Position numbers and translations under genes: made by a program. From positions 1 to 13,217 of the forward strand of contig JAUQXD010000776.1 in NCBI GenBank assembly GCA_030834835.1: a stretch of 13,217 bases of DNA. Reading direction: 5' to 3'. The notes below the pieces were generated by a model. The model saw nothing but the letters and a program-made list of their open reading frames with translations, had not been told where the DNA came from and made no database searches. Below, piece by piece: positions 5,327-9,569 of the stretch (the first letter of the stretch is position 1; each line of letters opens with the position of its first letter). The stretch is from Thermoflexales bacterium (lineage in GTDB: Bacteria > Chloroflexota > Anaerolineae > Fen-1058).

Positions 5327-5998
5327 ATGTCATTATCCTCTATGATCCTGCTCGTTGAAGGCGCCCGCCCTGCCTCTTCTCTGGCTCCCGTGCTGGAGGA
5401 TAAAGGCTATGTCGTCGCGCTGGCCTCCAACGTAAAAGAAGCGTTGAATCAGGTCCGCGAAGCAGCTCCGGCGCTGACCGTGGTCAACGCCGCCACGCTG
5501 CACACCGACGGGCAGCGTATCTGTATCGATCTGCGCGAGGCCAGCCCGCTGCTCCCGATCGTGATGGTGGTGCGGCATGGCATCGATCCCGATAAGATCG
5601 ACTGCGCCGACGTGGTCCTGGTGCGACCCTTCACCACGCGCAAACTGCTCAATCGCATCGGCCGGCTGCTGCCCGATACCGCCGGCGAAGTGTTGTGCGT
5701 TGACAACCTGGTTCTCAATCTGAATACGCACCTGCTGCGCGTGGGCCGGGCCGAACATCGCCTGACACCCATGAAAGCGCGGCTGCTGGAAGAGTTCCTG
5801 CGGCATCCCGGCGAAACACTCAGCCGTGAATATTTGATGAAGAGCGTGTGGCAGACGAACTATACTGGCGACACACGCACCATCGAAGTGCATGTGCGCT
5901 GGTTGAGGCAGATCATCGAGGTGGATGCCGCGCAGCCCAAATTGCTGAGGACCGTGCGCGGCGTCGGGTATCGATCGACCATCGGGGTGAGTGCCTGA
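5327..5998 (+). CDS. OmpR/PhoB-type regulator with degenerate receiver
   Basis: This regulator of about 223 residues has a receiver-like N-terminal domain (about 6-118) and a winged-helix DNA-binding domain (about 125-220). The DNA-binding domain is well preserved: LTPMKARLLEEFLRHPGE, LSREYLMKSVW, GDTRTIEVHVRWLRQ and LRTVRGVGYR. The receiver is not: the phosphoacceptor Asp is Asn54 (LTVVNAATL), the switch Lys is Arg100 (VLVRPF), the Thr/Ser position is Val, and the acidic pair is reduced to Glu-Gly (LLVEGA). It is therefore probably not activated by the usual Asp phosphorylation. No kinase gene is adjacent. The start is uncertain: ATG 5327 and ATG 5342 are both possible and neither has a clear Shine-Dalgarno; 5342 would begin at MILLVEG, the usual receiver start. 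A TTG at 5303 is less likely. The stop lies inside the terminator hairpin. Confidence 0.85.
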   Translation: MSLSSMILLVEGARPASSLAPVLEDKGYVVALASNVKEALNQVREAAPALTVVNAATLHTDGQRICIDLREASPLLPIVMVVRHGIDPDKIDCADVVLVRPFTTRKLLNRIGRLLPDTAGEVLCVDNLVLNLNTHLLRVGRAEHRLTPMKARLLEEFLRHPGETLSREYLMKSVWQTNYTGDTRTIEVHVRWLRQIIEVDAAQPKLLRTVRGVGYRSTIGVSA

Positions 5999-6013
5999 CT
6001 CACCCCGATTTTT
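5981..6013 (+). terminator. intrinsic terminator of the regulator gene
   Basis: A perfect 12-bp stem (5981-5992 with 5998-6009) with a 5-nt loop is followed by TTTTTATT. The stop codon of the regulator gene (5996-5998) falls in the loop and stem. The convergent membrane-protein gene ends at 6012, within the T-run. Confidence 0.85.
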
Positions 6014-6365
6014 ATTCGTCAACGTCAAAGCCGGTCTGGCCGATGATGTTGAGCGGCCGGGCAGCCGGCGCCGCCGATCGAGGTTGCGGCAGCCGCGCAC
6101 TGATGGGCTGCGATCCAACCACGGTTGGTTGAGGCGGCCGGGTCACATAGATCACAGGCAATGATGCCGCAGGTTGATCGCGCCGCCGCCGGCCCGCCAC
6201 CAACCCACCGACGACCACCCCCACCGGCACCGCCACACCGATGCCGCACACTACACCCGCCAGCAGCGCCACTTCCTCGGCGTTCAGCCGGTTGGCAATG
6301 AACACCACCAGGGCCGCTGCAAAGCCCACCACAGATAGCGTAACGATCAACAAGGCTTGTTTCAT
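6012..6365 (-). CDS. small membrane protein behind a LexA-like operator
   Basis: This 117-residue protein has two hydrophobic helices (about 4-24 and 32-57), then RRRR at 59-62, then a Pro/Ala-rich tail of about 55 residues ending in GFDVDE. By the positive-inside rule the tail faces the cytoplasm and the two helices form a hairpin. No family is recognised. The ATG at 6365 is chosen because the promoter's TATAAT ends 9 bases before it; starting further upstream would begin inside the promoter. With so short a spacing the mRNA is probably leaderless or nearly so. The promoter has consensus -35 and -10 boxes, and the spacer holds a GAACATATGTTC palindrome. This suggests silence until DNA damage. 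SOS genes in several phyla encode small membrane proteins that halt division, but this assignment is only an inference. Confidence 0.72.
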   Translation of the reverse strand: MKQALLIVTLSVVGFAAALVVFIANRLNAEEVALLAGVVCGIGVAVPVGVVVGGLVAGRRRRDQPAASLPVIYVTRPPQPTVVGSQPISARLPQPRSAAPAARPLNIIGQTGFDVDE

Positions 6366-6374
6366 GATACCTGC

Positions 6375-6403
6375 ATTATATGGAACATATGTTCTGATGT
6401 CAA
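6375..6403 (-). promoter_or_regulatory. consensus sigma-70 promoter
   Basis: On the minus strand, TTGACA (6403-6398) and TATAAT (6380-6375) are separated by exactly 17 bp. Both hexamers are perfect consensus, the strongest promoter seen in the window. It drives the small membrane gene starting at 6365. Confidence 0.85.
6382..6395. promoter_or_regulatory. LexA-like operator in promoter spacer
   Basis: GAACATATGTTC (6383-6394) is a perfect 12-bp palindrome lying wholly between the -35 and -10 boxes. With its flanks, AGAACATATGTTCC on the minus strand, it matches the Bacillus-type SOS box CGAACRNRYGTTYC at 13 of 14 positions. Bound protein there would block RNA polymerase. Confidence 0.65.
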
Positions 6404-6410
6404 GATACAA

Positions 6411-6440
6411 GAAACCCGGCTTCTGGTGAAGCCGGGTTTC
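6411..6440 (-). terminator. rpsT terminator hairpin
   Basis: A perfect 13-bp stem (6411-6423 with 6428-6440) has a 4-nt loop. On the minus strand it is followed by TTTCTTGTATCTT, a moderate U-rich tract. It ends rpsT transcription and shields the promoter of the small membrane gene just downstream. Confidence 0.8.
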
Positions 6441-6466
6441 CGTGTTGGGTTAATTCAACGGGTCGA

Positions 6467-6736
6467 TTACTTTTGGGCGGTCTTAGCCGCGGCCTTCATC
6501 AGACGCGCCTTGCGGCGAGCCGCGTTGCGCTTGTGAACGACGCCCTTGACAGCGGCTTTGTCGAGCGCGCTGGCGGCAGCGTTAACGGCCACCGACATGT
6601 CTTTGGCCTCACCGGCCTCGATCGCTTCACGCGCCGTGCGAACGGCGCCGCGCGCGTTAGTGCGCACTGTCTTGTTGCGGACGGCCCGACGATTGCTGCT
6701 ACGAATACGCTTGATTGCAGATTTAATGTTAGCCAA
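6467..6736 (-). CDS. rpsT: 30S ribosomal protein S20
   Basis: This 89-residue basic protein is S20, a primary 16S rRNA binder in the 30S subunit. The N-terminal ANIKSAIKRIRSSNRR is the family signature, and KGVVHKRNAARRKARLMK near the C-terminus matches the second helix region. Translation starts at TTG (6734-6736): GGAGG lies 8 bases upstream, and M-ANIKSAIKR is the canonical S20 start. An upstream ATG at 6751 would add five residues and overlap the ribosome-binding site. The gene stands alone with its own promoter and terminator. S20 genes in other bacteria often use a rare start codon and are autogenously controlled at translation; the TTG start here fits that, but it was not tested. Confidence 0.95.
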   Translation of the reverse strand: MANIKSAIKRIRSSNRRAVRNKTVRTNARGAVRTAREAIEAGEAKDMSVAVNAAASALDKAAVKGVVHKRNAARRKARLMKAAAKTAQK

Positions 6737-7933: not shown

Positions 7934-8601
7934 GCCGTCACCTGCTGATCGGGCGAGAGATAGATCGGCTGCAGGGCCGCGACATCATCGACATCACCGC
8001 CCTGAATGCGCTGCCAGGCCAGCTCGGCCAGGAAGCCGGCGCGCCGCAGACTGAACGCACCCGGCGACAACGACACGCGCTCACCCAATCGTTGTTCAAG
8101 CAACGTGCGTTCTTGATCGGATAGTTCGCCGCACACGGTCGTGGGCTTTTCCCACGTCTCGCCCATGCGATCGGGCGTGGTCAACCAGAAATCGCCGTCG
8201 CGTTTCCAATCGGTGCGCGACTTGAGATACCGCGCGGCGATCCATCGACCGCGCCCGGCGCGCACTACCACGACGAGCGGCGGCCTGGCCCAGCGATGCG
8301 CATACGCGAGAATATCCGGCGTCTGCACGCCGACGATAGGCAGGTCGCGCGCCATCGCCAGGCCCTTCGCCGCGGCCACGCCCACGCGCACGCCCGTGAA
8401 AGAGCCGGGACCGATCGAGACGCCAAGACCCGTAAGCTGTTCGATCGGCACATCGATCTGCCGCAGCAGATCGGCAATACGCGGCATCAACTCGACGGTG
8501 TGATGATCGGCGGTGTCCCAACTGTATTCGGCGCGCACGACCGCGCCGTCATAGACGGCCAGGCTGGCGCTGCGAGTGGCGGTATCGATGGCTAAGATCA
8601 T
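7930..8601 (-). CDS. tsaB: tRNA t6A biosynthesis protein TsaB
   Basis: This 223-residue ASKHA-fold protein is the partner that, with TsaD and TsaE, transfers the threonylcarbamoyl group to A37 of ANN-decoding tRNAs. The N-terminal MILAIDTATRSASLAVYDG and the segment SIGPGSFTGVRVGVAAAKGL (about 62-81) are diagnostic. The length is typical. It overlaps tsaE upstream (ATGA at 8598-8601) and rimI downstream by 4 bases each. tsaD, often the next member, is not in this window. TsaB lacks catalysis of its own; it stabilises TsaD. Confidence 0.93.
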   Translation of the reverse strand: MILAIDTATRSASLAVYDGAVVRAEYSWDTADHHTVELMPRIADLLRQIDVPIEQLTGLGVSIGPGSFTGVRVGVAAAKGLAMARDLPIVGVQTPDILAYAHRWARPPLVVVVRAGRGRWIAARYLKSRTDWKRDGDFWLTTPDRMGETWEKPTTVCGELSDQERTLLEQRLGERVSLSPGAFSLRRAGFLAELAWQRIQGGDVDDVAALQPIYLSPDQQVTA

Positions 8602-9104
8602 GATCGGATTCCAAAGACTTCGCGCTTGAGCGCAGTGAGCAATGCTTGATGTTGCGCGTCGGTAGGCTTAAACGTCAGGCGGCGGCGGGTATCGTCGACG
8701 AGTTCCAGTGTAATCCACAACCGATCGGTTGGCAGCAGTGACAGCGCACGCTCCGGCCATTCGATCAGCACCGTCGAAGTTGAGTCCATCAGATCACTCA
8801 GGCCCAGCATCCACGCCTCGCGTTCGGATTCCAGCCGATAGAGATCGACATGGTACAGGTGTTTGCGATCAGCCTCGCGGCGCAGTTCGTGGATTAGCGT
8901 GAACGTGGGGCTGGTGAGATCATCGGTGGCGCCCCAGCCGCGGCCCAGGCCCTGCGCAAAGCACGTTTTGCCCGCGCCCAATTGGCCTTCCAGGCAAATG
9001 ACTTCGCCGCCCTTCAGCAGCTTACCTAAGCGTTCGCCGATGCGCGCAGTCTGGGCAGGACTGCCGCTCAAGAATTCGACGGTGGTGGAATCTAGGATTG
9101 GCAT
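8598..9104 (-). CDS. tsaE: tRNA t6A biosynthesis ATPase TsaE
   Basis: This 168-residue P-loop ATPase supports the turnover of the TsaB-TsaD complex in t6A synthesis. The Walker A GQLGAGKT is at 40-47, SPTF at 65-68, HVDLYR at 85-90 and IEWPE at 114-118, all family signatures. The ATG at 9104 is chosen because MPILDSTTVEF begins the family's usual N-terminus and a TATAAT lies 9 bases upstream. The frame stays open far upstream only because it reads through the tRNA genes in antisense. The C-terminal 30 residues follow the usual beta-strand. There is no Shine-Dalgarno, so the message is probably leaderless or nearly so. It is the first gene of tsaE-tsaB-rimI. Confidence 0.93.
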   Translation of the reverse strand: MPILDSTTVEFLSGSPAQTARIGERLGKLLKGGEVICLEGQLGAGKTCFAQGLGRGWGATDDLTSPTFTLIHELRREADRKHLYHVDLYRLESEREAWMLGLSDLMDSTSTVLIEWPERALSLLPTDRLWITLELVDDTRRRLTFKPTDAQHQALLTALKREVFGIRS

Positions 9105-9113
9105 GGCGCCGCG

Positions 9114-9142
9114 ATTATACCGCTTGCGTTTACGCGCGGCAA
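9114..9142 (-). promoter_or_regulatory. promoter of tsaE-tsaB-rimI
   Basis: On the minus strand TTGCCG (9142-9137) and TATAAT (9119-9114) are separated by 17 bp. The -10 box ends 9 bases before the tsaE ATG. Confidence 0.65.
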
Positions 9143-9170
9143 GCAGTTCGCGCCACGACCAATGGCGCCG

Positions 9171-9277
9171 GGCGATTGAAATCGCAGCAACAACTGCACG
9201 AAGTCGGCCTGCGCCGACTGAAAACCCGGCCGACGGAGGTCGGCTTTGTGTAGTCTGTAGGCGCGATTTTAATCGCC
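9171..9277. repeat. nested inverted-repeat element (REP/MITE-like), ~107 bp
   Basis: The outer arms 9171-9185 (ggcgattgaaatcgc) and 9263-9277 (gcgattttaatcgcc) are inverted copies matching at 14 of 15 bases. Each arm is also a palindrome (GCGAT/ATCGC). Inside are two further hairpins, AGTCGGC-ctgc-GCCGACT and GCCGAC-ggag-GTCGGC. No ORF lies within. The design is that of a small non-coding mobile or REP-type element; copy number in the genome is unknown. Confidence 0.65.
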
Positions 9278-9326
9278 AGCCATTGCGTGAGTCGAAATGT
9301 GCGTTGCTGGAACCGTTCAAACTTGC

Positions 9327-9355
9327 TTGACACTCCCGCGTCAATCGGGTACAAT
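9327..9355 (+). promoter_or_regulatory. promoter of the tRNA-Ala pair
   Basis: TTGACA (9327-9332) and TACAAT (9350-9355) are separated by exactly 17 bp. The first tRNA begins 15 bases after the -10 box, leaving a precursor leader of about 8 bases. Confidence 0.8.
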
Positions 9356-9369
9356 CTTGTCCGCTGGAC

Positions 9370-9442
9370 GGGCCTGTAGCGCAGTTGGGAGCGCGCCTCA
9401 ATCGCACTGAGGAGGCCGTGGGTTCGAATCCCACCAGGTCCA
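9370..9442 (+). tRNA. tRNA-Ala (anticodon CGC)
   Basis: A full 73-nt cloverleaf is present. The acceptor GGGCCTG pairs with CAGGTCC and includes the G3-U70 wobble that AlaRS recognises. The D stem is GCGC/GCGC. The anticodon stem CCTCA/TGAGG holds loop ATCGCAC, giving anticodon CGC. The T arm has GTGGG-TTCGAAT-CCCAC. The discriminator is A. CCA is not encoded (ACT follows), so it must be added enzymatically. Confidence 0.95.
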
Positions 9443-9467
9443 CTGTAGTCGCCTTAAGAATTAGGAT

Positions 9468-9540
9468 GGGCCTATAGCGCAGTTGGGAGCGCGTCTCAAT
9501 GGCATTGAGAAGGTCGTGGGTTCGAATCCCACTAGGTCCA
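9468..9540 (+). tRNA. tRNA-Ala (anticodon GGC)
   Basis: A full 73-nt cloverleaf is present. The acceptor GGGCCTA pairs with TAGGTCC, again with G3-U70. The anticodon stem TCTCA/TGAGA holds loop ATGGCAT, giving anticodon GGC. It differs from the preceding tRNA at only seven positions, four of which are two compensated base pairs. CCA is not encoded. It lies 25 bases after the first tRNA, probably on the same transcript. Confidence 0.95.
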
Positions 9541-9548
9541 CACAATAG

Positions 9549-9569
9549 GGGCAGGCACACGGCCTGCCC
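9549..9569 (+). terminator. hairpin after the tRNA pair
   Basis: GGGCAGGC and GCCTGCCC form an 8-bp stem with a 5-nt loop 8 bases after the second tRNA, followed only by TTACA. Without a T-run it may be a weak terminator or a dispersed hairpin repeat. Confidence 0.45.

Follow-up and report, generated by a model that had tools for sequence, protein, structure and literature searches.

Escherichia coli ftsK is SOS-inducible through dinH, and its product consists of a membrane part, a long linker and a motor (PMC4080785). Small membrane proteins under SOS control form another described group, which comprises YneA, SosA, ChiZ and SidA; YneA is a single helix with an extracellular LysM domain (PMC13396833). 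The operator GAAC-N4-GTTC is stated to be that of LexA in Bacillus subtilis, Mycobacterium tuberculosis and Gram-positive bacteria (PMC3323433). SOS-induced FtsK and SOS membrane proteins are each already known, but in the open-licence literature we found no description of a LexA-controlled pair in which a soluble FtsK motor has a dedicated membrane protein.

Here we describe a gene for a small membrane protein in the window, by which we mean the whole stretch of 13,217 nucleotides that was analysed, from a bacterium of the Chloroflexota. Relatives of this gene regularly accompany a gene for an FtsK-like motor. As in FtsK and SpoIIIE, the partner gene encodes the FtsK alpha and motor domains, but its motor has no gamma domain and no membrane part, and a separate two-helix protein with a Pro-rich linker is encoded beside it. 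In contrast to E. coli FtsK, the membrane-plus-linker and the motor are here separate genes, with LexA predicted to act over both, and the window's protein is a candidate partner of FtsK, not FtsK itself. With YneA, SosA, ChiZ and SidA the protein has in common that it is small, membrane-located, predicted to be under SOS control and without shared sequence; it differs in its two predicted helices, its conserved and probably cytoplasmic tail and its linkage to an FtsK-like gene. The YneA-like layout of one helix plus an extracellular domain was not found, since two helices are predicted and searches of Pfam and NCBIfam returned no LysM or other extracellular domain; that layout is itself not universal among the SOS membrane division inhibitors. 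Gram-positive LexA regulons use the same GAAC-N4-GTTC operator, which the LexA of Dehalococcoides reportedly also binds. The differences are that many of the sites described below lie inside or just behind perfect TTGACA-N-TATAAT promoters, and that FtsK-like/membrane pairs are among the targets.

A consensus promoter with a putative LexA operator precedes the membrane gene

The features of the locus are collected in Table 1. The sequence-only reading of this DNA had described a perfect TTGACA-17-TATAAT promoter with a palindrome in its spacer, and every element of that description is exact: TTGACATCAGAACATATGTTCCATATAAT (minus strand, 6403-6375) consists of perfect -35 and -10 hexamers separated by 17 nt, and GAACATATGTTC lies within this spacer. 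Its match of 13 out of 14 positions to the Bacillus-type SOS box likewise holds against CGAACRNRYGTTYC, which we take to be the Bacillus consensus. When the window was shuffled 200 times, TTGACA-N16-18-TATAAT occurred at a mean of 0.01 per shuffle, with a match in one shuffle. GAACATATGTTC is the sole exact GAAC-N4-GTTC of the window; with one mismatch allowed, 6 sites were found against 4.66 expected, and the bare palindrome was not enriched in the window's own genome (45 exact sites versus 45 for a control pattern). Because these counts are close to expectation or control, the box alone means little and its combination with a promoter is what counts; given the lack of enrichment across the genome, only promoter-coupled boxes were weighed.

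The promoter lies directly 3' of the terminator-like hairpin behind rpsT. The ATG at 6365 begins 10 nt past the end of the -10 box, which suggests that the mRNA is leaderless or nearly so.

Table 1. Features of the membrane-gene locus, with positions in the window
Feature	Position	Strand	Basis
OmpR-type response regulator gene, convergent neighbour, kept in relatives L082 and L083	5303..5998	plus	Pfam PF00486, PF00072
Terminator-like hairpin between response-regulator gene and membrane gene	5981..6009	plus	Sequence inspection
Gene for predicted two-helix membrane protein, 117 aa, stop included	6012..6365	minus	ORF; ATG start backed by paralogue and 24 homologues
C-terminal tail motif core, residues 103-110 (RPLNIIGQ)	6036..6059	minus	Homologue alignment
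Membrane hairpin, residues 2-60 (predicted helices 2-26 and 29-60)	6186..6362	minus	Low-confidence AlphaFold2 model; family hydropathy
-10 hexamer TATAAT	6375..6380	minus	Exact match
GAACATATGTTC, proposed LexA operator inside promoter spacer	6383..6394	minus	Box scan and composite promoter survey
-35 hexamer TTGACA	6398..6403	minus	Exact match
Terminator-like hairpin between rpsT and promoter	6410..6441	minus	Sequence inspection
rpsT (ribosomal protein S20), syntenic marker	6467..6736	minus	Pfam PF01649

The gene encodes a predicted membrane hairpin with a conserved tail

An ORF of 132 aa runs from a TTG at 6410 through the promoter. The ATG at 6365 is backed as the start both by a paralogue in the same genome, which also begins MKQA, and by 24 homologues that align from MKQ. 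Two membrane helices, an RRRR sequence and a Pro/Ala-rich tail had been proposed from the sequence alone, and this description holds. AlphaFold2 predicted the two helices listed in Table 1 and a tail without regular structure, in a model of low confidence (mean pLDDT 61.2, pTM 0.29). RRRR comes after helix 2, and Pro and Ala abound in the tail that follows; judged from the charges, both ends of the hairpin would be inside. The protein is a member of an orphan family and matched no Pfam, NCBIfam or PADLOC family, no FtsK domain was detected in it with these three collections, and a PDB search returned a single match, at an E value of 0.24.

Members of the family have two helices, connected by a short loop in which an Arg is conserved; basic residues, a PPVVIV-like stretch and a Pro-rich linker come next, and the C-terminus carries an R-x-F/Y-x-I/V-I/V-G motif. 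A regular expression found this tail motif in 44 of the 49 members first extracted; among the five misses, two carry REFTTIGEE, one is cut off, one differs and one is not of the family. Among the close homologues, the mean majority share was 0.93 in the tail core, compared with 0.71 in the linker (23 of 25 aligned rows, P0144 and P0145 being omitted because their C-termini do not align). Relatives of the protein were found in 62 of 100 related genomes at E ≤ 0.01, weak matches included (our sets of 100 related genomes include the window's own), and the family numbers 1604 at E ≤ 1e-3 among 7999 candidates scored.

The same composite promoter precedes lexA and a repair-type gene

Contig C1035 of the window's own genome (6.48 Mb, 90.7% complete, 7.0% contamination) carries lexA twice, in tandem. 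lexA1 has the promoter TTGACA-CCGAACAATTGTTCGAA-TATAAT, again with a 17-nt spacer, and a further composite promoter, TTGACA-CACAAGAACACATGTTC-TATAAT, the third in the genome, precedes a radical-SAM gene that is followed by a DUF6504 gene. The best model for the radical-SAM gene is TIGR03916, "putative DNA modification/repair," at 284 bits, below the cut-off of 343.5. Two more boxes are not in the exact composite design, namely that of lexA2, GAACGGGCGTTC, and GAACACCCGTTC, which precedes an IMS-family gene and then a PHP/DNA_pol3_alpha gene, a pair that we read from its domains as imuB and dnaE2. recA has no exact box within 400 nt upstream, and its best two candidates have 2 mismatches. A recA gene under a LexA operator is not known to be required in every lineage.

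The sequence-only reading had proposed that the palindrome is a LexA operator and the gene an SOS gene, with the box to be sought at other SOS promoters of the host. The composite promoter shared with lexA1 and the TIGR03916-like repair gene supports this proposal; of the host genes named in that reading, lexA and an imuB/dnaE2-like pair carry the box and recA does not. Its sequence context makes the GAACATATGTTC box a very probable LexA operator.

The centre of the lexA2 box is rich in G+C in genomes G000, G001 and G004, and so is that of the imuB-like box, whereas more A+T is found at the centre of the boxes before lexA1, the TIGR03916-like gene and the window's gene. Together with tandem LexA paralogues (L080 2730-4217; L084; L085), the two box types perhaps reflect two sub-regulons.

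In the related genomes, the composite of promoter and box was found at 113 sites in 55 of 100 genomes, and the reversed control at none. At 25 of the 30 composite loci listed, the gene reached within 2.6 kb is lexA, an FtsK-like gene, a TIGR03916-like gene or the window's gene, with an intervening gene in two of the 25; the other five lead to unrecognised genes. A wider set of 61 promoters is biased, its loci having mostly been taken for their FtsK-like genes, and the 30 survey loci give the fairer count. The five loci with unrecognised genes (L276, L286, L287, L289 and L291) may hold further SOS genes of the class. The TIGR03916-like gene (L020 2034-3717) begins 6 nt after the -10 box, and the same spacing in L277, L279 and L280, where the matches start at base 36 of the promoter stretch, brings this to four genomes, which suggests leaderless SOS mRNAs. 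A DUF6504 gene comes next in three of these four loci.

Members of the membrane family follow a short FtsK-like motor gene

On contig C1035, lexA1 is followed by lexA2, an FtsK-like ATPase gene, a paralogue of the window's membrane gene and a DUF6504 gene, and the ATG of the paralogue overlaps the stop codon of the ATPase. The FtsK-like protein, of 378 aa, consists of an FtsK_alpha domain from residue 2 and an FtsK_SpoIIIE motor, and it matches solved FtsK chains, e.g., 2iuu, over alpha and beta. Both domains are present in all 13 aligned motor members, the Walker motifs are invariant in the alignment, and no gamma domain was matched in any of the 13 at E ≤ 0.001. The genome encodes two other FtsK_alpha proteins besides; only the C1035 motor copy reaches E ≤ 1e-60.

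At this threshold, 69 FtsK-like genes of the short type were found in 62 of the 100 genomes, and 38 genomes gave no match. With a profile of the membrane family, 65 of the 69 loci proved to have a member downstream of the motor gene and in its orientation, and no locus had one upstream or on the opposite strand. Since the profile was built from 44 sequences of these same loci, 21 of the 65 matches are independent. An earlier count by a simple hydropathy rule (49 of 69 loci, of which one, L123, is not of the family) is superseded by that of the profile.

The exact box occurs at most 300 nt upstream of the FtsK-like gene in 34 of 68 stretches (43 sites), and each of seven control patterns in 0 or 1 locus; the 68 count L102, where the gene is truncated and the stretch is not genuine upstream sequence, but not L104, which sits at a contig edge. 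A lexA gene lies upstream in 23 more (14 of these at up to 300 nt and on the same strand, nine at 345 to 957 nt), so that an exact box or a lexA gene is found upstream in 57 of the 69 loci. The remaining 12, three of them with shortened stretches, have neither. DUF6504 follows in 17 of the 69.

In named records, the best 80 of 162 relatives include 28 Chloroflexota loci (45 to 71% identity), 25 with the membrane gene and 18 with the box, and some of these contigs are the same as loci already in the place-based set. The other 52 of these 80 loci, at 36% identity or less, have no membrane gene and no box; with frames of about 500 to 960 aa, we read them as ordinary FtsK. In a sample of 201 genomes across the phylum, the motor was found in six, the window's own included, one of which lies outside the class. 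On these sequence comparisons, it is well supported that a membrane gene directly behind the short FtsK-like ATPase is the rule in this class, which places these hypothetical proteins in a likely setting.

A role in anti-phage defence was considered and rejected: PADLOC matches the motor only as FtsK/HerA-type (SspH, mad8, HerA) and gave no match for the membrane protein. Apparent motor-less membrane genes in G022, G024, G047, G048 and G084 were not counted, as they lie close to a contig end, where in G022 a fragment of the motor gene is visible. Candidate members in G096 and G061:C49 were unconfirmed by the family profile.

The window's copy has no adjacent motor gene and appears to be maintained

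In the relatives G003 (L082) and G004 (L083), the matching place can be recognised from MurJ and the convergent response regulator, to which L082 adds rpsT. This place holds the promoter with its box, an FtsK-like gene, which in L082 lies between rpsT and the membrane gene, and the membrane gene. The box, whose conservation at the relatives' locus had been put forward as a check, is kept in both, upstream of the FtsK-like and membrane genes. In the window, the FtsK-like gene is absent from this place and the promoter abuts the membrane gene. A second motor-less copy was found in G017 (L248), where lexA is followed by the membrane gene behind a composite promoter. These two copies without an adjacent motor gene indicate that pairing in cis is not obligatory; each of the two genomes also has a full motor-membrane pair.

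Twenty-four other proteins are 50 to 90% identical to the window's, and all except two are full length. Two residues of the window's tail differ from the class consensus, L standing for F/Y and Q for E/D. Both changes belong to the homologue group's own tail consensus, RPLNIIGQNxFDxD, which argues against a loss of constraint. Judged from their sequences, the 24 close homologues show that the membrane protein is maintained. Two of the proteins have over-long starts, P0127 with MKPGFLYLDTRTYVPYN... and P0143 with MKPGFLYLDNRTYVSYN..., which match the window read through its promoter, FLYLDIRTYVPYN. As these starts read through such a promoter, at least two further sequences have promoter and gene in this order; the P0127 start is compatible with an exact box, and the codons of P0143 imply one mismatch.

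A proposed split, damage-induced FtsK and its alternatives

We consider it somewhat better than an even chance that the window's gene is a LexA-repressed SOS gene whose membrane protein works with an FtsK-like DNA motor, as the tether of a split FtsK. The predicted regulation and the linkage to the motor are well supported by the comparisons above; contact through the tail, tethering of the motor and its supply in trans in the window's lineage are what we infer from them. Upon DNA damage, cleavage of LexA would let the promoter fire fully, and a nearly leaderless mRNA would yield abundant membrane hairpins, each with its two ends inside. The Pro-rich cytoplasmic tail, ending in R-x-F/Y/L-x-I/V-I/V-G, could then dock the soluble alpha-beta FtsK motor at the membrane. 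Tether and motor together would make a split FtsK for moving or clearing DNA during the time in which repair and division are held. The window's lineage would have lost the adjacent motor gene, and the motor would be supplied by the operon of lexA2, FtsK-like gene, membrane gene and DUF6504. Against this reading we count the box-less recA, the lack of genome-wide enrichment of the bare palindrome, the copies in the window and in G017 that stand without an adjacent motor gene, the 38 genomes with no motor match, the 12 FtsK-like loci with neither box nor lexA, the five composite promoters that lead to unrecognised genes and the weak AlphaFold2 model of the membrane protein.

A fuller account, which we advance tentatively and at rather less than an even chance, is that a two-piece damage-induced FtsK, made of a gamma-less soluble motor and a hairpin with a Pro-rich linker and docking tail, is common in one Chloroflexota class and wired into its lexA operons, and that in the window's lineage the anchor has turned into a free-standing SOS effector with a strong promoter, recruiting the motor in trans. 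If the tether reading is true, FtsK can be divided into a membrane half and a motor half, each a part of its own that can be tuned independently of the other. The gene pair, the tail motif and the promoter offer handles on post-damage chromosome handling in a little-studied lineage.

Although the locus had been read as a possible division checkpoint, tethering of a DNA translocase is better supported, because the regular companion of the family is an FtsK-like motor and its conserved non-membrane part is a probably cytoplasmic tail motif. An SOS cell-division inhibitor that targets FtsW or some other component of the divisome from within the membrane, with the FtsK-like neighbour serving a separate SOS function, is unlikely, if still a serious alternative. 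LexA control, small size, a very strong promoter and the lack of shared sequence, which is expected of such inhibitors, all fit it, as does the window's copy standing without a motor gene, and small late-division membrane inhibitors are described as widespread (PMC13396833). However, 65 of 69 short FtsK-like genes have a family member downstream of them, the conserved tail is probably cytoplasmic whereas YneA has one helix and an extracellular LysM domain (PMC13396833), and we found no link to the divisome.

We regard as improbable a role as membrane regulator, in which the protein would hold, inhibit or gate the FtsK-like motor or ordinary FtsK and its surplus copies in the window's lineage would keep DNA pumping off during repair. 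The linkage data are the same for a regulator as for a tether, and sequence by itself does not separate the two; a stand-alone copy under a perfect promoter would exceed the motor, and the two other FtsK_alpha proteins of the genome also fit regulation. On the other hand, the two helices, linker and putative docking motif resemble the membrane-plus-linker part that the motor lacks in comparison with FtsK. That the window's copy is a non-functional remnant left by loss of the FtsK-like gene is very improbable: the motor gene of L082 and L083 is indeed absent beside it and its tail departs twice from the class consensus, but 24 proteins at 50-90% identity, the share of 0.93 in the tail core, the intact promoter and the same promoter-gene order behind the starts of P0127 and P0143 speak against it. 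Least credible is that the palindrome is a chance occurrence or another repressor's site, which we set aside because, despite the unenriched bare palindrome (45 versus 45) and the recA gene without a box, the composite promoter occurs 113 times versus 0 for its control and precedes lexA itself and repair genes.

Other observations

A GAACNNATGTTC palindrome contains the start codon of mraZ, with which the division cluster begins (G000:C1081:5076-5098, in L019 near 5087; relatives in L295-L302). This palindrome is found at the mraZ start in 8 of the 100 genomes, including all five of the window's order in the set, and a second pattern at the mraZ start occurs in 13 genomes, 7 of them among the 8. 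It is possibly a LexA site on the division gene cluster, or else a coincidence.

Two adjacent tRNA-Ala genes, with anticodons CGC and GGC, lie at 9370-9541 of the window. A long ORF opposite them (8598-9560) starts with the peptides GIRTHDLLNAIETRSQLRYRP and VGFEPTASSVRLRRAPNCATGP, which we take to be peptides common in false proteins over tRNA genes.
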